Below, one piece after another: positions 3,017 through 39,266 of a DNA stretch of 64,000 bases; the stretch's first letter is position 1; every line of letters begins with the position of its first letter. A program made the position numbers and the translations under genes. The notes beneath the pieces are model-generated. The model saw nothing but the letters and a program-made list of their open reading frames with translations. It did no database searches and had not been told where the DNA came from. Location: contig NZ_JAOEFC010000003.1 of the NCBI RefSeq assembly GCF_025421715.1, forward strand, positions 62,001 through 126,000. The letters run 5' to 3'. The DNA is from Microbacterium festucae (GTDB taxonomy: Bacteria > Actinomycetota > Actinomycetes > Actinomycetales > Microbacteriaceae).

Positions 3017-3075
3017 CGAGTGTCCAAGACACGCGGCTCGGGGCGAGTGGATGCCGCGTGTCCTGGACACTCGGC
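3017..3075. repeat. Palindromic repeat family A, copy 3
   Basis: Arms as in copy 1 with one mismatch in the right arm (TCCTGG for TCTTGG). The centre (ctcggggcgagtggatg) is the same as in copy 4. Confidence 0.93.
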
Positions 3076-3141
3076 AGGCGCAAGCGCAGGCGCAGGCCCA
3101 GGGGCAGGGATATTGGGGCGGGGCCGGGCCGTGCACCCCCG

Positions 3142-3199
3142 CGAGTGTCCAAGACACGCGGCTCGGGGCGAGTGGATGCCGCGTGTCTTGGACACTCGA
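3142..3199. repeat. Palindromic repeat family A, copy 4
   Basis: Arms match copy 1 for 20 bp. Its upstream flank (GTGCACCCCCG) is also found before copy 5. Confidence 0.93.
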
Positions 3200-3282
3200 C
3201 AGGGACAGGGGCAGGGACAGGGGCAGGGGCAGGAGCAGGCGCGCGAGCAGGGTATGGGGTGGGGCCGGGCCGTGCACCCCCG

Positions 3283-3341
3283 CGAGTGTCCAAGACACGC
3301 GGGTGGGGGCGAGAGGATGCCGCGTGTCTTGGACACTCGGC
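3283..3341. repeat. Palindromic repeat family A, copy 5
   Basis: Third unit of the local array. The arms are intact and the centre (gtgggggcgagaggatg) is diverged from copies 3 and 4. Confidence 0.93.
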
Positions 3342-13427: not shown

Positions 13428-13781
13428 ATGGTCACGATGCTCGAGGTCGCCGACGTCTCCGCGAGGCCTGTCGCCTGCTGTGCACCGCTGGTGCGCGAGC
13501 CGCTCGGGCACGACGACGCGGAGCGGCTCGCCGCCACGCTGAAAGCGCTCGCCGATCCCGCTCGGCTGCGACTGCTGTCGATCGTCGCCGCCTCCGAGGG
13601 GCAGGAGGCGTGCGTCTGCGACCTCATCGCCCCCATCGGGCTCTCGCAGCCGACGGTGTCGCACCATCTGAAGGTGCTGACCGAGGCGGGGTTCCTCTCC
13701 CGGTCCAAGCGCGGCACCTGGGCGTACTACCGGCTGCAGCCCGAGGCGCTCACCGGGGTCGCGGGCGTGCTCGCCGGCTGA
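13428..13781 (+). CDS. arsR: ArsR-family arsenite-responsive repressor
   Basis: A winged-helix repressor of 117 residues. It has the DNA-recognition helix LSQPTVSHHLKVLTEAGFL and two sets of cysteines: a vicinal pair at residues 17-18 (PVACCAP) and Cys62 and Cys64 in EACVCDL. The pair plus a cysteine of the CVCDL segment is like the arsenite site of the Corynebacterium glutamicum ArsR, while CVCDL alone is the site of the E. coli type. The predicted leaderless start is the first ATG at 13428; a second in-frame ATG follows three codons later. It is divergent from the flavoprotein-acetyltransferase operon and probably represses both directions through the ATCGAC-N4-ATCGAT sites. Confidence 0.93.
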   Translation: MVTMLEVADVSARPVACCAPLVREPLGHDDAERLAATLKALADPARLRLLSIVAASEGQEACVCDLIAPIGLSQPTVSHHLKVLTEAGFLSRSKRGTWAYYRLQPEALTGVAGVLAG

Positions 13782-13805: not shown

Positions 13806-13892
13806 GCGCGATCTCGTTCCGGGTGCGATCTCGGTCCGGGTGCGATCTCGTTCCGGGTGCGATCTCGATCCGGGGTGCGGTCTCGTTCCGGG
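13806..13892. repeat. 17-bp tandem repeat, five units
   Basis: Five consecutive near-identical units of GTGCGATCTCGTTCCGG fill the gap between convergent arsR and menC. The last unit is two bases longer. The function is unknown. Confidence 0.9.
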
Positions 13893-13893
13893 T

Positions 13894-15079: not shown

Positions 15080-18000
15080 GTGACTTCGCCTCGCTTCGCC
15101 CTCGACATCGACGGCGTGCCCCGCCCGCCCCGCGCGCAGGCGCTGCTGGATGCCCTCGCCGAACGCGTCGTCGTCGCCGACGGGGCCATGGGCACGATGC
15201 TGCAGCGTCACGAGCTGTCGATCGAGACAGACTTCGCCGGGCTCGAGGGGTGCAACGAGATCCTCAACGAGACGCGCCCCGACGTCGTCGCCGCCATCCA
15301 CGACGCCTATTACGCGGTCGGCGTGGATGCCGTGGAGACCAACACCTTCGGAGCCAACTGGTCGAACCTGTCCGACTACGGCATCGACGACCGCATCGCC
15401 GAGCTCGCCGAAGCCGGCGCCCGCATCGCGCGGGAGCGTGCCGAGGCGGCGGAGGTCGCCGACGGGCGGATGCGGTGGGTGCTGGGCTCGATGGGTCCGG
15501 GCACCAAGTTGCCGTCGCTGGGCCACACCACCTATGCGCACCTGCGTGACACGTTCGCCCTGCAGGCCGAGGGGCTCATCGACGGCGGCGCCGACGCCTT
15601 CCTCGTCGAGACCTCGCAAGACCTGCTGCAGACCAAGGCCGCCGTCAACGGCTGCAAGCAGGCGATCGTCGCGCGCGGCATCCGCCTGCCGATCTTCGTC
15701 GAGGTGACCGTCGAGACCACCGGCACCATGCTCATGGGCTCGGAGATCGGCGCCGCCCTCACCGCGCTCGAGCCGCTCGGGGTGGATGCCATCGGCTTGA
15801 ACTGCGCGACCGGCCCTGCCGAGATGAGCGAGCACCTGCGGCACCTGTCGAAGCACTCCACCGTCACGATCGCCTGCATGCCCAACGCGGGTCTGCCGGT
15901 GCTCACCGCCGACGGCGCGCACTACCCGCTCTCGCCCGACGAGCTCGCCACCGCGCACGAGCAGTTCGTGCGCGAGTTCGGCATCGGCCTGGTCGGCGGA
16001 TGCTGCGGCACGACGCCCGAGCACCTCGCCGCCGTCGTGGGGCGGCTGCGCCCGTCGCGGTCGTTGAGCGAGGGGGACGCGGGGGACCGAGACGCCTCGG
16101 GGGCGGTGGGGCGTTTCGACTCGCCTGCGGCTCGCTCAACGACCGGAGGGGCGGTGGGGCGTTTCGACTCGCCTGCGGCTGGCTCAACGACCGGGGGTGC
16201 GGCTCGCTCGACGACGGGGCGGGGCGGGGGTGCGGAGGTGGAGCCGGGGGTGGCGTCGCTGTACCAGCACGTGCCGTTCGCGCAGGATGCCTCCTACCTC
16301 GCCATCGGCGAGCGCACCAACGCCAACGGATCGAAGGCGTTCCGCGAGGCGATGCTCGAGGGCCGGTGGGACGACTGCGTCGAGATCGCGCGCAACCAGA
16401 CGCGCGTGGGCGCGCACCTGCTCGACGTGTGCGTCGACTATGTGGGCCGCGACGGTGTCGCCGACGTGCGCGAGGTCGTGTCGCGGTTCGCCTCGGCATC
16501 CACCCTGCCGCTCGTGATCGACTCGACCGAGCCCGGCGTCATCCAGGCGGGTCTGGAGCTGGTCGGCGGGCGCCCCGTAGTCAACTCGGTCAACTACGAA
16601 GACGGCGACGGGCCGGCATCCCGGTTCGGACGCATCATGCCGCTCGTCAAGGAGCACGGCACCGCGGTGATCGCCCTGACCATCGACGAGCAGGGGCAGG
16701 CGCGCACCGCCGTCGACAAGCTGCGCATCGCGTCGCGGCTGGTCGATGAGCTGGTCGGCGACTGGGGGATGCGCGTCGAGGACATCGTCGTGGACTGCCT
16801 CACCTTCCCGATCGCGACCGGCCAGGAGGAGACCCGCCGCGACGCGATCGAGACCATCGAGGCGATCCGCGCACTCGTGGCGAAGTATCCCGGCATCCAG
16901 ACCACCCTCGGCGTCTCGAACGTGTCGTTCGGGCTCAACCCCGCCGCCCGCTCGGTGCTCAACTCGGTGTTCCTGCACGAGGCGACCCAGGCGGGGCTCA
17001 CGAGCGCGATCGTCGACGCGGCGAAGATCGTGCCCCTGGCCTCCCTGCCCGACGAGCAGCGCACCGTCGCGCTCGACCTGGTGTGGGACCGGCGGCGCTA
17101 CGACGACGAGGGCAACCTCGTCTACGACCCGCTCGCGGTCATGCTCGACCTGTTCGCGGGCGTCGACACCGCCGCCCTGCGCGACCAGCGCGCCGCCGAG
17201 CTCGCCGCCCTCCCGGTGGGCGAGCGCCTGCAGCGCCGCATCATCGACGGCGAGCTGAAGGGCCTCGAGGCCGACCTCGACCTCGCTCGCGCCGACGGCA
17301 TGACGGCCCTCGACATCATCAACGAACAGCTGCTGGAAGGCATGAAGGTCGTCGGCGAGCGGTTCGGCTCGGGGCAGATGCAGCTGCCGTTCGTGCTGCA
17401 GTCGGCCGAGGTCATGAAGACGGCCGTCGCCCTGCTCGAACCGCACATGGAGAAGGCGGATGCCGGGGGCAAAGGCACGATCGTGCTGGCCACCGTGCGC
17501 GGCGACGTGCACGACATCGGCAAGAACCTCGTCGACATCATCCTCACCAACAACGGCTACGACGTGATCAACCTGGGCATCAAGCAGCCGATCGCCGACA
17601 TCATCGCCGCCGCCGAAGAGCACGACGCGGATGTCATCGGCATGAGCGGTCTGCTGGTGAAGTCGACCGTGGTGATGAAGGAGAACCTCCAAGAGCTGCA
17701 GGCGCGCGGGCTCGCCGGCAAGTGGCCGGTGATCCTGGGCGGGGCCGCCCTCACCCGCGCCTACGTCGAGTCCGATCTCGCGGGGCTCTTCGACGGCGAG
17801 GTGCGCTACGCGAAGGACGCGTTCGAGGGGCTCGCGCTGATGGAGCCGCTCGTGCGCATCGCCCGCGGCGCCGACCCGGCATCGGTGGGTCTTCCCGCGC
17901 TGAAGCAGCGCATCCACCGCGAAGGCTCGCTGCTGACGGTCACCGAGCCCGAGCACATGCCCGCGCGCTCCGATGTCGCCGCCGACAACCCGGTGCCGTC

Positions 18001-20331: not shown

Positions 20332-21363
20332 TCAGCGCCCGCGTCTGGCGGATGCCGGGCGCCGGGCGATCACGCCCAGCCAGCGGTCGGCGGCGCCGGG
20401 CGCCGTGATGTCGGTGACCTCGATCTCGCGCCAGCCCGCCGCGCGGAACGCCTCGCCCAGCGCCTCGGCGCGCCAGTAGGTGTAGTGGCGCGGGGCGGCG
20501 AGCTTGTGGGTCGACCACCCGTCGCCGTCGCCCTCTTTGAACGAGGCGGCGATCGCGCCACCCGGGACGGTGGCGCGCAGGGCGGTCGCGAGCACGCCGC
20601 GCAACTGCGCGCGGGGCACGTGCAGTAGCACCGCGTTGGCGAACACCGCATCGTACGGGCCGCCGAAATCGGGGGCCCGCACGTCGAGCAGGCGACCGGC
20701 GTGCCCCGCGGCGCGCTGCAGCGTGACGAAGGGCGCCGCCGCGTCGGTGCGGTCGACGACCAGCCCGGCCGCCTCGAGCGCATCGGCGTCGCGGCCCGGC
20801 CCGGTGCCGAGTTCGAGCACGCTGCCGCCGGGTCGGGCCTGCGCCACCAGCGCCGCCGCCAGCGGGGAGAGGCCGCTGCCGATCGGCGTGGTCTGGATGT
20901 AGAGCAGCGCCCCGGCGCGGTAGGCGGCCAGGGTGAGGTCGGCGGGGTCGCCGAGCGGCGGCGCCGTGCAGGCGTAGCGGGGACGGTCGGCGGGGCCCAC
21001 CGTCTCGAACTCGAAGCCGACGTCGGCGTAGAAGCCGATCGCCTCCGCGTCGGCATCCGTGCGCACCGGCAGGGCGCTGTGCGCGCGGCGCACGGCATCG
21101 ATGAGCTTCTGGCCGATCCCCTGGCCGCGACGGTCGGGATCGACGGCGATGTAGCGCAGCACCACGGCGCCGCCGGTGACCGTCGAGGCCGCGAAGCCGA
21201 CGATGCCGGGATCGAAGCATCCGATCACGTCGAGCCGGGGCAGCTCGACGTCGCGCACCCACGGCAGCGCATCGGCCTCGACGCCGGTCGCCTCCCACAG
21301 CAGCGGCCACAGCTCTGCAGAGCCGATCTCGTCGCGGGTGAGCGGCCGGATCGTGGCGGTCAT
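20332..21363 (-). CDS. Fusion of GNAT acetyltransferase and SAM-dependent methyltransferase
   Basis: A protein of 343 residues. Residues 1-145 are a GNAT domain (VLRYIAVDPDRRGQGIGQKLIDAV with the acetyl-CoA loop RRGQGIG). Residues about 150-340 are a class I methyltransferase with motif I in VLELGTGPGRDADAL and a later ANAVLLHVPRAQL segment. The two activities in one chain suggest one substrate that is acetylated and methylated, or a self-contained detoxification enzyme. TAGAGT lies 6 nt before the ATG, so the transcript is probably leaderless. The VOC gene follows directly. Confidence 0.85.
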   Translation of the reverse strand: MTATIRPLTRDEIGSAELWPLLWEATGVEADALPWVRDVELPRLDVIGCFDPGIVGFAASTVTGGAVVLRYIAVDPDRRGQGIGQKLIDAVRRAHSALPVRTDADAEAIGFYADVGFEFETVGPADRPRYACTAPPLGDPADLTLAAYRAGALLYIQTTPIGSGLSPLAAALVAQARPGGSVLELGTGPGRDADALEAAGLVVDRTDAAAPFVTLQRAAGHAGRLLDVRAPDFGGPYDAVFANAVLLHVPRAQLRGVLATALRATVPGGAIAASFKEGDGDGWSTHKLAAPRHYTYWRAEALGEAFRAAGWREIEVTDITAPGAADRWLGVIARRPASARRGR

Positions 21364-24300
21364 GTCGTGACTCTAGCGAGCGGCGCCGACGTTGTCAGGG
21401 GTGCCGCCACCGGTCGGGCGCGGCGCAGCGACGACAGGGCCACGCGGCCGAGCACCAGCACGCCGATCACGGTCGTGATCGCGCGGAGGGTGTCCCACCC
21501 GGCCGTCGAGGTGACGAGCGAGTAGACGAGGAAGCTGCCGACGTTCTGCGCGAGCGGCGCGCCCGCGACGTAGGAGATGCTCGCCTGGCCGCCCACGGCG
21601 AACGGCCAGAACCATAGGTTCATCAGCAGCCCGAACAGGTACGACGCCGCGATGCCGTAGACGCACAGCATCGCGATCTCGCCCGCCCCGCGCACCCGGC
21701 GCGGCAGCAGCCCCGCACCCGCGCCCACCCAGCCGCACGCGAACATCTGGAACGGCAGCCACGGCCCCACCCCGCCCCACAGCACGGCCGACACCGCGAT
21801 CGACGCCGCCCCCAGCAGCAGCCCGAACCGCGGGCCGAACGCCCGGCCGGCGAGGATCAGCAGCACGAACAGCGCTTCGACCCCACCCACGCCGGTGCTC
21901 GCGATGCGCACTGCCGCGCCGAGCGCGGCCAGCACCGCGAGGTGGGCGAGGGTGTGCGCCGACCGCACCGAGGTGTCGAGGGCGGCGAGCACGACCAGCA
22001 CGGCGAGCGGCGCGATCGCGAGGGCGATGTAGGGCACAGCGGCCTGCGCCTGCGCGGGCACGGCGCTGGCCACCAGCGGCCAGCAGAACGCCGCCAGCGC
22101 CGCGACGTTCGCGGCCACCAGCGCGGCGGTGCGCCAGCGCGGTGCGGTGGGGGTGGGGCGGTGGGAGGCGTCGGGTGCGGGGCGGTGGGCGGCGCCGGGG
22201 GTGGGGCGGTGGGAGGTGTCGGGGTTGGGGGTGCGGCCGGGGGCTGGCGGAACCTGGGCATCGGGTCGATGGGCGGGCGGGGCCGCGGCGTGCGGGGTGC
22301 GGCCGGGGGTTGCCGGAACCAGGGCGTCGGGTCGATGGGCGGGCGGGGCCGCGGCGTCGGGGGTGCGGCCGGGGGCCGCCGGAACCTGGGCATCGGCTCG
22401 ATGGGCGGGCGGGGCCGCGGCGTGGAGGGCGTCGCCCGACCCATCCGTCGGGCCCGTGGGGCGGGAGTCGTCTCGGCGGTCACGCGAGTGACCACCAGCC
22501 CCACCGATCCGACGGATGGTGTGGAAGAGGACGTGAGGGCGGGTGGCGCCGCGGCGCTCGGAGGGTGGCGTCTCGGGTTCGACGGGCGGGGCGTCGGGGG
22601 CGTCGGACGTGTCCAGGGAGTCGGCCGTGACGGCGCCGTCGGGGGCGTCGGTTACGGCTGGGACGTCGGTCGTGGTGGGGGCGGCGGCTGGCCCATCCGT
22701 CGGGCCGGTGGGGCAGCAGTCGCCTGGGCGGCCACAGGAGTGTTCATCAGCCCCACCGATCCGACCGATGGTGCGAAGGTCGGCCGGTGGGAGCCCGGTC
22801 GGGGCCGCGGTGCCGGCGCCGGAAGGGGCGACGGCGGGGGCGTCGGGGACGGGGTGGGAGGGCGCGATGGCGGGGGCGTCGGGGACGGGGTGGGAGGGGG
22901 AGAGGGAGCCGGCGGCGAGGGGGAGGACGCGGTCGACGATGGACGAGACGAACGCGGCGTCGTGGGTGGCGATGAGCACCGCGGCACCGGCATCGGCCTG
23001 GGCGACCAGTGCGTTCGCCACGAGCGCGCGGGCGGCGGGGTCGAGGCCCCGTGTCGGCTCGTCGACCAGCAGCACGGCGGGGTGCCGCGCGGTCTGCAGC
23101 GCGATCGCCAGACACCGGCGCTGCCCGGCGGACAGGTCGCGCGGATGGGTGTCCAGCAGGCGGGTGAACGTCGCATCGGCGGGCGCGAGCCCCAACAGCC
23201 CGGCGAAGCGGCCGGCCGTCGAACCGGCCGCCCTCGACCCGGCGGCGCGGGCGGCGCCGGGTCCGTGGTCGCCGGTGACACGGTGGTCGCGGGCGGCGCG
23301 GCGGTCAGCGCGGCGGCACTCGGCGCGCACGGTGTCGCGCACGAACAGGTCGTCCGAGGCGTCGGGAACGAGCGCCGCCGTGCGCTCGCCCGTCGCCAGA
23401 GCGATCAGCAGGCTCGATTTGCCGGCGCCGTTGGGCCCGGTCAGAGCGACGATCTCGCGGGGGAACAGCGTCACGGCCGCGTCGCGCACCGCCACATGCG
23501 CGCCGTGGCGCACCGTGATGCCGGCCCGGTCGAGCACCGCGGGCTCCGCCCCCGGCGCGGATCGGGAGGAGCGGGTGCGTGTGGCATCCGAGGGATCGCC
23601 ACCGTGCGCCGCGGCCCCGTGCCCCAACCCCCCGGACGGCAGCCCTCCGGGCGCCACGGCCCCGTGCGCCGCGGCGCCGTGCCCCAACCCCCCGGACGGC
23701 AGCCCTCCGGGCGCCAACCCCCCGGACGGCAGCCCCACAGGCGCCACGGCCCCAGGCGCCACGGCCCCGTGCGCCGCGGCCCCGTGTCCCAAGGCCCCGT
23801 GCCCCAACCCCCCGGGCGGCAGCTCGCCAGGCTTCAACCCCCCGTGCCCCAACCCCGCGGGCGCCACCCGGCCGTCGGCGACGCGCAGCAAACCGTCGGC
23901 GATGCCCGCGAAGGCGTCGGCGCGGTGCTCTGCGACCACGACGCACACGCCCGCGGTGTGCGCCAGGGCGTCGAGCGCCGCCACGATGCGCGCGCGGGCC
24001 TGCCGGTCGAGGTCGGCCAGCGGCTCGTCGACCAGCAGCAGGATCGGGTGGTCGACGACGGCCGCCGCGATCGCCACCAGCGTCGCCTCACCCGCCGAGA
24101 GGCCTCGCAGGTCGCGGCCGAGCAGCGCCGTGATGCCCAGGCGCCCCGCCACCTCGGCCACGCGCGCGGTGCGGATGACGGCGGCGACCCCGCGCAGCTC
24201 GAGGGCCAGCGCGATCTCGTCATCGACGCGCGCTGTGGCGAACCCCTCACGCGGATGCTGGAGCACCACGCCCACCGTTCGGGCGGTGTCACGCGGGGGT

Positions 24301-25061
24301 GTGGCCGCGCGGTCGACGCCGACGATCTGCATCCGGCCGGTCAGCCACCCGCCGTCGAGGTGCGAGTGCAACCCGCTGAGGGCGCGCAGCAGCGTGGTCT
24401 TGCCCGACCCGGTGTCGCCGGTGAGCAGTGTCAGCGTGCCCGGAGCCAGCGCGAGGTCGTCGGCGCACACCGTCGCGGCGGAGCCTGCCGAGCCGAAGCC
24501 CGCCGCGGCCTGCTGCAGCACCACGGGGTGCGTGCAGTCGCCCTCGAGCCCCCGCCCCGCATACCCGCGCAGCTCGAGCGCGGCCGCGACCGCGGTGGCG
24601 CGCTCGATCGCCCGCTGCAGCACCGGCGCCAGCAGCCGCACCCCCGCGCGCTCGCCGCGCAGTCGGGCGGCCAGTCGCGCCGCGCGCACGGCATCCGCCA
24701 GCGACGGCAGCGTCGCCCACGCCACCGCCAGCGCCCGGGCGAGCCCGCGGAAGGGACCGGAGCGGGCCGCGCGCGAGAGCAGGCGCGCGATGTCGATCAC
24801 CGAGCTGAGCAGCCCGAACGCGAGGATGGTCAGCGCGATCGGCACCGCGCTGACCGCGGCCGTCCACAGCCCGTCGACCGTGGCCGGCCCCAGCAGCTCG
24901 ACGTGCGCGAACGGCGCGGGCAGGCGCCACAGGGGGAGGGGCAGCACCACCGCGCCGGCGCCGTCGGCGCCGTGGAAGAGCACCCGATAGACGACCCGGA
25001 CGGCGATGAAGGCCGCGGCGAGAACCGCCGCGGCCTTCATCGGTCCGGATCGGAACCTCAC
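21360..25061 (-). CDS. Single-chain ECF-type transporter: EcfT, two ATPases and S component fused
   Basis: A protein of 1233 residues that contains a whole energy-coupling-factor importer. Residues 1-185 are a T subunit ending in the coupling helix region (RLAARLRGERAG, ALELRGYAGRG). Residues about 195-400 are ATPase 1 (Walker A GDTGSGKTT, signature LSAGE, LLLVDEP). Residues about 505-720 are ATPase 2 (GPNGAGKSS, LSAGQ, LLVDEPTRGLD). Residues about 975-1233 are a six-span S component (FQMFACGWVGAGAGLLP). The linkers are repeat DNA read in frame: a Gly/His/Ala array (400-490), two 27-residue family C palindromes (764-790 and 848-874) and three 22-residue units (about 881-946). GTG at 25061 overlaps the lipoprotein stop (GTGA). 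The substrate is unknown; cobalamin is a guess. Confidence 0.85.
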   Translation of the reverse strand: MRFRSGPMKAAAVLAAAFIAVRVVYRVLFHGADGAGAVVLPLPLWRLPAPFAHVELLGPATVDGLWTAAVSAVPIALTILAFGLLSSVIDIARLLSRAARSGPFRGLARALAVAWATLPSLADAVRAARLAARLRGERAGVRLLAPVLQRAIERATAVAAALELRGYAGRGLEGDCTHPVVLQQAAAGFGSAGSAATVCADDLALAPGTLTLLTGDTGSGKTTLLRALSGLHSHLDGGWLTGRMQIVGVDRAATPPRDTARTVGVVLQHPREGFATARVDDEIALALELRGVAAVIRTARVAEVAGRLGITALLGRDLRGLSAGEATLVAIAAAVVDHPILLLVDEPLADLDRQARARIVAALDALAHTAGVCVVVAEHRADAFAGIADGLLRVADGRVAPAGLGHGGLKPGELPPGGLGHGALGHGAAAHGAVAPGAVAPVGLPSGGLAPGGLPSGGLGHGAAAHGAVAPGGLPSGGLGHGAAAHGGDPSDATRTRSSRSAPGAEPAVLDRAGITVRHGAHVAVRDAAVTLFPREIVALTGPNGAGKSSLLIALATGERTAALVPDASDDLFVRDTVRAECRRADRRAARDHRVTGDHGPGAARAAGSRAAGSTAGRFAGLLGLAPADATFTRLLDTHPRDLSAGQRRCLAIALQTARHPAVLLVDEPTRGLDPAARALVANALVAQADAGAAVLIATHDAAFVSSIVDRVLPLAAGSLSPSHPVPDAPAIAPSHPVPDAPAVAPSGAGTAAPTGLPPADLRTIGRIGGADEHSCGRPGDCCPTGPTDGPAAAPTTTDVPAVTDAPDGAVTADSLDTSDAPDAPPVEPETPPSERRGATRPHVLFHTIRRIGGAGGHSRDRRDDSRPTGPTDGSGDALHAAAPPAHRADAQVPAAPGRTPDAAAPPAHRPDALVPATPGRTPHAAAPPAHRPDAQVPPAPGRTPNPDTSHRPTPGAAHRPAPDASHRPTPTAPRWRTAALVAANVAALAAFCWPLVASAVPAQAQAAVPYIALAIAPLAVLVVLAALDTSVRSAHTLAHLAVLAALGAAVRIASTGVGGVEALFVLLILAGRAFGPRFGLLLGAASIAVSAVLWGGVGPWLPFQMFACGWVGAGAGLLPRRVRGAGEIAMLCVYGIAASYLFGLLMNLWFWPFAVGGQASISYVAGAPLAQNVGSFLVYSLVTSTAGWDTLRAITTVIGVLVLGRVALSSLRRARPVAAPLTTSAPLARVTT
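21370..21375 (-). promoter_or_regulatory. -10 box TAGAGT, leaderless promoter of the acetyltransferase-methyltransferase gene
   Basis: On the minus strand TAGAGT ends 6 nt before the ATG at 21363. Confidence 0.6.
22231..22428. repeat. 66-bp tandem repeat, three units, inside the ECF gene
   Basis: Three copies start at 22231, 22297 and 22363. 66 bp is 22 codons, read as APPAHRPDAQVPAAPGRT-type units in the linker before the S component. Confidence 0.92.
22440..22520. repeat. Palindromic repeat family C, copy 2 (81 bp, inside coding sequence)
   Basis: Same length and arm sequence as the intergenic copies. On the minus strand it is read as 27 residues beginning TIRRIGGAGG and ending RPTGPTDG (residues 848-874 of the ECF protein). 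Confidence 0.93.
22692..22772. repeat. Palindromic repeat family C, copy 3 (81 bp, inside coding sequence)
   Basis: Read in the same frame as copy 2: begins TIGRIGGADE and ends CPTGPTDG (residues 764-790 of the ECF protein). Confidence 0.93.
23600..23860. repeat. 60-bp-period repeat in the linker between the two ECF ATPase domains
   Basis: Segments containing CCCCCCGGACGGCAGCCCTC recur at a 60-bp spacing and then in shorter, shuffled units. They are read in the minus frame as GLPSGGLGHGAAAHGAVAPG-like repeats. Confidence 0.8.
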
Positions 25062-25609
25062 GGGGCGGCCGGCGCCCCATCGAGGGTGAACAGCAGCTCG
25101 ACGCTGTCGCCGGGGGCGACCTGTTGGGTCGCGAGGCCCTCCTGGGCGTAGTCCCAGTCGCCGCCGGCGGGCTTGACCCACAGCGACCAGTAGGCGAACG
25201 CGGCGGGCATCGCCTCGCAGGCCTCCACGTAGGCGGGGTCTTCGGTCGAGCCGACCGGCTCGGTCGCCGACGGCAGACCGTCGACACGGCACACGACCTG
25301 GTCGCCGTACTCGGTCGTGCCCTCGGTCTCGAAGCCGGCGGTGGTGAACGCGTCGCCGGCGGTGACGGCATCCGACGTCGCCAGGCAGTGCTCGGTCTTC
25401 TCGCCGCCCTCGAGCGCCGATGCGTCGACGACGAGCGTGACGCCCTCATCGTCGGTGCACGCGGCGTCGGTGACGACCGACGCCGCAGTCGTCGGCGACG
25501 GCGTGGTGGTGGCGGAGCCGGCGGGGGCCGCCGAACCGGAACAGGCGGACAGGCCGAAGGCGAGGGCCGCCGTGGCGGCGAGCGTCAGGATGCGGGAAGT
25601 CGTGGTCAC
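25058..25609 (-). CDS. Lipoprotein linked to the ECF transporter, function unknown
   Basis: A protein of 183 residues with a signal and lipobox (ILTLAATAALAFGLSACSG) and a Ser/Thr/Ala-rich spacer. The folded part has four cysteines and ends in AYWSLWVKPAGGDWDYAQEG followed by a GDSVELLF segment, a pattern reminiscent of the surface ligand-binding domains (DUF4430-like) often encoded beside actinobacterial ECF transporters. Its stop overlaps the start of the ECF gene (GTGA), so it is likely a substrate-capturing partner of that transporter. The start is GTG with TAGCCT 7 nt before it. The binding role is inferred. Confidence 0.75.
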   Translation of the reverse strand: MTTTSRILTLAATAALAFGLSACSGSAAPAGSATTTPSPTTAASVVTDAACTDDEGVTLVVDASALEGGEKTEHCLATSDAVTAGDAFTTAGFETEGTTEYGDQVVCRVDGLPSATEPVGSTEDPAYVEACEAMPAAFAYWSLWVKPAGGDWDYAQEGLATQQVAPGDSVELLFTLDGAPAAP

Positions 25610-39010: not shown

Positions 39011-39069
39011 CGAGTGTCCAAGACACGCGGCATCGGCGTGACGGCATCCGCGTGTCTTGGACACTCGGC
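39011..39069. repeat. Palindromic repeat family A, copy 6
   Basis: Arms as in copies 1-5. The centre (catcggcgtgacggcat) contains the frequent GGCATCC at its right edge. Confidence 0.95.
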
Positions 39070-39207
39070 GGGGTGTAGGCGACGCGGGGCGTCAGGAGCG
39101 CTCAGGGTGCGGGGCGTAGGCAGCGCGGGGCGGCGCGTGCTCGGGGTGCGCAGTGCGCGGGGTCTCGTTCCCTCCGGGTGGCCGGTGGTCTGGCTCGACC
39201 CACAGGT

Positions 39208-39266
39208 CGAGTGTCCAAGACACGCGGCATCGGCGCGACGGCATCCGCGTGTCTTGGACACTCGGC
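39208..39266. repeat. Palindromic repeat family A, copy 7
   Basis: Differs from copy 6 in one base of the centre. The left flank (CAGGTCGAG) is shared with copy 6. Confidence 0.95.

Follow-up and report, generated by a model that had tools for sequence, protein, structure and literature searches.

How does a run of repeated DNA come to be read as protein in the middle of a methionine synthase? In the window, the 64,000-nucleotide stretch of DNA analyzed here, the metH gene carries a set of repeats between its homocysteine and folate modules, and an earlier note, made from the letters alone, proposed that a DNA repeat had entered the protein there in frame. Insertion of this sort is known above all from Rickettsia, in which a hot spot and common origin are hard to separate. 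We describe here the insert, the repeat family to which it belongs, and the corresponding linkers of MetH proteins across the genus, which is Microbacterium as judged from the best-matching named relatives.

The metH insert

The metH open reading frame contains the Pfam modules S-methyl_trans, Pterin_bind, B12-binding_2, B12-binding, and Met_synt_B12, and the repeats are inserted in frame between PF02574 (residues 31-320) and PF00809 (residues 410-646). Coordinates are given in Table 1. In an AlphaFold model built from codons 8-660 of the metH frame and 24 relatives (mean pLDDT, 76), residues 321-409 of the fragment have pLDDT values below 50 and are flanked by two folded modules; the homocysteine/folate linker is predicted to be disordered. 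The inverted arms and the 48-bp duplication that had been noticed earlier are both there: positions 16058-16215 consist of a degenerate left arm, then a pair of 48-bp units identical at 46 of 48 positions, and a partial third unit. The degenerate unit resembles, by eye, a less decayed unit in the linker of genome G049. Against the repeat consensus, the linker of the window scores 50, compared with 28 for the best of 300 dinucleotide shuffles.

Table 1. Features of metH and its repeat-bearing linker (positions in the window)
Feature	Position	Strand	Basis or remark
metH frame, cobalamin-dependent methionine synthase, 1265 aa	15080..18877	+	ORF and Pfam modules
Linker stretch, residues 321-387, 67 aa vs 15 in PDB 8g3h	16040..16240	+	Alignment to solved methionine synthase
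Inverted arms CGGTCGTTGAGCGAG and CTCGCTCAACGACCG	16058-16072 and 16131-16145		Both present; extended pair 24 nt, 83% complementary
48-bp duplication	16100-16147 / 16148-16195		96% identical; translations GAVGRFDSPAARSTTG / GAVGRFDSPAAGSTTG
Degenerate repeat unit, forward orientation, GGTCGTTGAGCGAGG...CGAGACG	16059..16094	+	Codons 16058-16096 read RSLSEGDAGDRDA
Repeat unit 1, reverse orientation	16112..16144	-	GGTCGTTGAGCGAGCCGCAGGCGAGTCGAAACG on - strand
Repeat unit 2, reverse orientation	16160..16192	-	Tandem copy 48 bp (16 codons) downstream of unit 1
Partial third unit	16198..16215	-	TGCGGCTCGCTCGACGAC

Other repeats were noticed as well. Another palindromic family, GAGTGTCCAAGACACGCGG...CCGCGTGTCTTGGACACTC, forms clusters of inverted pairs in the genome of the window, at 1649-1930, 3020-3340, and 39014-39265 of the window and at 2760-2990 of L114. 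Five tandem copies of the 17-bp unit GCGATCTCGTTCCGGGT occupy 13808-13893, directly 3′ of a small open reading frame at 13428-13781. A frame at 21360-25445 (-), named ECF-transporter-like by eye, overlaps tandem arrays with 24-, 66-, and 60/90/120-bp periods and is probably the ECF gene mentioned in the earlier note.

The repeat family and its range

The core of the repeat, here called family A, is the 15-base sequence GGTCGTTGAGCGAGC, of which the 3.33-Mb genome that contains the window holds 48 exact copies against 0 for the reversed control; with one mismatch allowed, 113 places were found against 17 for the control. The segment in metH thus belongs to a dispersed DNA repeat, as had been proposed. 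The unit measures about 31 to 37 bp and has the general layout GGTCGTTGAGC-[GAG-core-GAG]-TCGAAACG, often in inverted pairs or short tandem arrays. Clusters read directly show units of 31 bp (GGTCGTTGAGCGAGCGCAGCGAGTCGAAACG) and of 37 bp (GGTCGTTGAGCGAGGAGCGCAGCGACGAGTCGAAACG) that point either way and have C-rich spacers. Inverted pairs occur in many metH linkers and single units of 31 to 37 bp elsewhere. That five of the six reading frames of a unit are open was considered as a special property and dropped, as 90 to 100% of shuffled units do likewise. Of the contig ends in the assembly, three fall inside a repeat array or at most 300 bases away from one (L089 1-140, L105 1-190, and L110 1-300), and longer arrays would thus seem to interrupt the assembly.

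At least one exact core is present in 87 of 149 genomes of the genus, with a range of 0 to 235 copies. Outside the genus, 10 of 293 genomes in a sample of the family have one or two copies, and the reversed control occurs once each in 10 of 299. Judged by its exact core, the repeat belongs to one genus and not to Microbacteriaceae as a whole, so that the statement in the earlier note that such sequences abound in the family holds for the genus and fails at the level of the family, where counts equal those of the control.

A search for the RAYT/Y1 transposase domain PF01797 was positive in 5 of 14 control genomes but negative in the genome of the window and in all 12 high-copy genomes; therefore, as far as PF01797 goes, family A is not a RAYT-driven REP system. 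Target-site duplications could not be read by eye because empty and filled sites differ in their flanking letters, and inspection by eye defined no terminal inverted repeats with target duplications for family A.

Placement in genes and proteins

Gene borders were taken from a simple codon-usage gene caller made for this analysis. In the genome of the window, all 48 exact copies fall into 27 clusters, a count that leaves out six one-mismatch stretches (L112-L117). Four clusters lie inside open reading frames, 3 at gene ends, and 20 between genes (3, 3, and 21 by the caller alone). The four frames encode MetH, UDP-glucose dehydrogenase (UGDH), a molybdenum hydroxylase, and the N terminus of a nitronate monooxygenase (NMO), so that the repeat of the MetH linker also sits in other proteins of this genome. 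The NMO cluster was moved by eye from intergenic to inside because the stretch from the repeats to the conserved fold has no in-frame ATG, GTG, or TTG, and the sole such codon 5′ of that fold precedes two units. In G138, the 24 clusters (26 listed of 27 exact copies) divide into 3 inside frames, 1 at a gene end, and 20 intergenic, the host frames encoding maltooligosyl-trehalose synthase (TreY), a PspC-domain protein, and UGDH. Pooled over the two genomes, 7 of 51 clusters are inside open reading frames and 40 of 51 are intergenic, with UGDH counted twice. Protein-coding sequence makes up most of a bacterial genome, and the small share of clusters inside genes would therefore point to strong selection against insertions elsewhere.

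Where homologues have been solved, the inserts in MetH, UGDH, the molybdenum hydroxylase, and TreY coincide with or adjoin gaps in those homologues. The UGDH insert lies between the NAD-binding and central domains and has 41 residues against 6 in the solved homologue (PDB alignment); that of the molybdenum hydroxylase lies between the 2Fe-2S and molybdopterin parts (74 residues against 36), and that of TreY has 39 residues against 0 (PDB alignment). In NMO, homology to the solved structure begins at residue 71. Family A units are read in several frames and on both strands (RSLSER.SETKR, VSTRSARSTTG, RFDSLRSLNDR, and VVERGAQRRVET) in different proteins; it is therefore the DNA rather than the protein that is conserved.

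An alpha-amylase-family gene, perhaps encoding a trehalohydrolase, ends in a repeat: the TGA within GGTCGTTGAGC is its stop codon (L095 2743-2773; G000 C1, about 564943), so that repeats can also set protein ends.

MetH linkers across the genus

A survey of 366 genomes of the genus returned 80 matches, from which three weak ones (G059, G072, and G559) were removed as non-MetH. This MetH is patchily distributed, being found in only 77 of the 366 genomes. Linker length, measured between GGCCGT and LAIGERTN, ranges from 43 to 116 aa (n = 77); 37 linkers have 43 to 50 aa, and 34 of these 37 carry no recognized repeat. A linker was assigned to a family when its score exceeded those of all 200 of its shuffles and was at least 30. 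By this threshold, 24 linkers carry family A, 1 family B, and 3 family C, and 49 are without a recognized repeat, of which 34 are short and 15 exceed 50 aa. The A calls for G010, G087, G463, and G454 are near the threshold; G010 is A under the genus-wide scoring with 200 shuffles and not under the earlier linker scoring, and G537 and G538, which narrowly passed for B too, were counted as A. Two of the 15 unclassified longer linkers (G521 and G541) appear by eye only to be variants of family C.

Family B is the palindrome GGTCTCGATAC...CTCGACCA, with 100 copies in G121, one of them (C1:3586895-3586933) inside the metH linker of that genome, which has 0 copies of family A; a search of the genome of the window with the family B pattern gave no match. 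Family C is the TTCGACAGGCTCAG repeat. G076 holds 84 copies, including one in the loop of UGDH, and the genome of the window has none; in G003 the family is weak, with 4 exact 14-mers in the genome. Families A and C have ends in common by eye (GGTCGYTGAGC...GTCGAA) and, judged from these letters, may be distant relatives. A further candidate family, the GAGAAACC... repeat in the linker of G046, was rejected, as it occurs at just 2 places in that genome, one of which is metH itself. In Agromyces terreus (L012), the MetH linker contains four tandem units derived from APASLPPRPAG, a further case, from a different genus name, of a linker with variable length. The earlier note had spoken of two unrelated repeat families entering protein linkers, and the survey goes further: one and the same linker is host to different families, depending on the species. 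Neither is the linker conserved in distant MetH proteins nor is the repeat confined to this gene.

Recognized repeats are present in 28 of 77 MetH linkers and in at least 3 among the matches listed for 136 genomes with UGDH, two surveys made with different detectors, of which that for UGDH was coarser and saw split matches only. The MetH linker thereby appears to be occupied more often than other protein sites. The UGDH inserts of G065 and G094 contained no recognized repeat.

Turnover at the linker

On a quick tree of the flanking MetH protein, a minimum of 18 changes is needed for the presence of A and of 26 for the five linker states, counts that cannot separate gain from loss, on a tree in which 31 of 74 inner branches are weak. 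Near relatives with flanking protein 97 to 99% identical carry A, C, or nothing recognized. One supported clade (98*) of five genomes, with flanking protein 98 to 99% identical, has A in G049, G101, and G052 and C in G518 and G658. In G537 and G538, whose DNA flanks are 98 to 99% identical, one linker has exactly 138 bp (46 codons) more than the other, and the 9-bp direct repeat CGCCCAGCG stands at the borders of this segment. This difference is the mark of slippage or short-repeat recombination, in either direction, and the 48-bp duplication in the metH gene of the window is the same kind of change.

UGDH carries two units at one shared position in G000 and G138, and in either case they are of the variant typical of the host genome: T-type CGAGTCG is found at 60 of 63 other copies examined in G000 and A-type CGAGACG at 28 of 30 in G138. 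The UGDH copies would thus have been acquired separately or kept alike within each genome by conversion. Genomes with family A in the MetH linker hold more A copies (13 versus 20 genomes; Mann-Whitney P = 0.0024, without correction for kinship). Several A-rich genomes (G028, 127 copies; G008, 123; G081, 85; G045, 83; and G014, 40) have no A in the linker, and its presence there is therefore not a simple function of load.

Taken together, the metH insert is very probably made up of clustered units of family A, a dispersed and non-autonomous repeat that is abundant in many genomes of the genus, tolerated where the protein is flexible and the frame is kept, and turned over by slippage or recombination. 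Copies would survive mostly between genes; those within genes would survive if their total length is a multiple of three, they bring in no stop, and they lie in an interdomain linker that is flexible, a loop, or a terminus. Units in place would be duplicated, deleted, and exchanged rapidly by slippage or by recombination between repeats, so that the linker would change length in whole codons. Other families, the GGTCTCGATAC...CTCGACCA palindrome and the TTCGACAGGCTCAG repeat, have also entered the MetH linker, which of the two protein sites surveyed genus-wide appears to be by far the more often occupied. Parasitic-looking DNA would thereby be turned into protein again and again at one tolerant spot. 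The insertions are probably neutral.

A broader proposal, which we put forward tentatively and consider doubtful, is that the MetH linker might be a general docking site, to which unrelated families without a known shared transposase are delivered, or at which they are retained, far more than at other tolerant protein sites. Repeat DNA would then supply the linkers of proteins with new sequence time and again within a single bacterial genus. The genus has cultivable members, and its 77 MetH orthologues include short, filled, and differently filled linkers, among them near relatives with almost identical flanks, a system suited to counting and directly testing gains, losses, slippage events, and the cost to function. 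A further point is a warning, in that annotation can take such repeats for ordinary protein sequence.

Alternative explanations

The linker might instead be adaptive, with a long tether or the strong RNA hairpin of an inverted pair aiding the folding or swing of the two N-terminal MetH modules, so that the site is favored and not just tolerated. The frequency of the three families there relative to UGDH would agree with this, as would an arm search that found arms in both orientations in 10 of 13 A linkers and the folding of 11 repeat-bearing linkers, which is stronger than that of their shuffles (z, -2.3 to -6.8), against z values of 1.1 to -1.7 for four short linkers and 0.1 for the single-unit linker of G138. 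Strong folding is, however, expected from the inverted pairs of the elements themselves, and the occupancy figures come from different detectors. Moreover, 34 of 77 genomes have a linker of 43 to 50 aa without a recognized repeat, and in pairs of close relatives one linker can be short and the other long (G019/G074 and G106/G130), and we regard an adaptive role as improbable. Chance likeness between the repeat and Gly/Ala/Ser/Thr-rich codons in a GC-rich genome, that is, convergent low-complexity coding, would fit a linker that is GC-rich and partly simple; it is set against the 48 core copies with none in the control, a linker score beyond 300 shuffles, and units lying in several frames and on both strands across different proteins, and it can be given hardly any credence.

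Apparent families could also be the divergent descendants of one ancient metH insertion that was inherited vertically and has decayed. The arms are indeed alignable within a tight clade (G049, G101, and G052), the ends of A and C are alike by eye, and repeated loss could mimic part of the tree pattern, given change counts that are blind to gain versus loss. This origin is nevertheless very improbable in view of the 18 or more changes of the A label, with 26 over five states, of a family B that is a different palindrome with its own dispersed copies in G121, of interleaved short linkers, and of near relatives that carry A, C, or none recognized beside flanking protein 97 to 99% identical. An unlikely reading, if the least so of these four, is that the units are regulatory or terminator elements of the REP/BIME kind, kept for gene expression, with intragenic copies being accidental. 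Most clusters (40 of 51) are intergenic, many of them near gene ends, the inverted pairs are able to form hairpins, and among the intergenic clusters of G138, 7 of 20 have convergent neighbors and 1 has divergent ones. In the genome of the window, by contrast, the 19 intergenic clusters with two called neighbors are 14 co-directional, 2 convergent, and 3 divergent, the units of intergenic clusters there stand in either orientation, and genomes of this one genus hold anywhere between 0 and 235 copies. A secondary regulatory use does not conflict with in-frame insertion.

Comparison with known systems

No published account of this repeat or of its letters in this group was found, a weak negative from a search in which the broadest result sets were partly covered. 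Family A is a high-copy, mostly intergenic repeat with some inverted pairs, as are REP/BIME elements, which are served by RAYT transposases and whose short copies number from tens to hundreds, lie mostly between genes, and often form inverted pairs. It differs from them in that PF01797 was found neither in the genome of the window nor in 12 high-copy genomes and in that copies also lie in open reading frames. MITEs are presented as non-autonomous repeats able to fuse to open reading frames in frame (PMC10969869). Family A is likewise probably a non-autonomous repeat that can join open reading frames, and it differs in that terminal inverted repeats with target duplications could not be defined for it by eye.

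By analogy, the closest known kind would be the Rickettsia palindromic elements (RPE), reportedly described by Ogata et al. in 2000 and 2002. Like RPE, family A is also found in frame inside open reading frames, between conserved parts (7 of 51 clusters). RPE are about 100 to 150 bp long, however, whereas family A consists of 31- to 37-bp units in pairs or arrays, is mostly intergenic, and belongs to a GC-rich actinobacterial host; the two are likened by description, not by sequence. RPE are reported as short palindromic repeats found in frame in many unrelated protein genes, with different groups in the same genes (PMC10969869, PMC3767692). For shared RPE sites, the Rickettsia japonica paper favors common origin and leaves hot spots open (PMC3767692, PMC10969869). 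For the MetH linker, interleaved short linkers and a family with 100 dispersed copies of its own lead us to favor repeated independent occupation rather than common origin.
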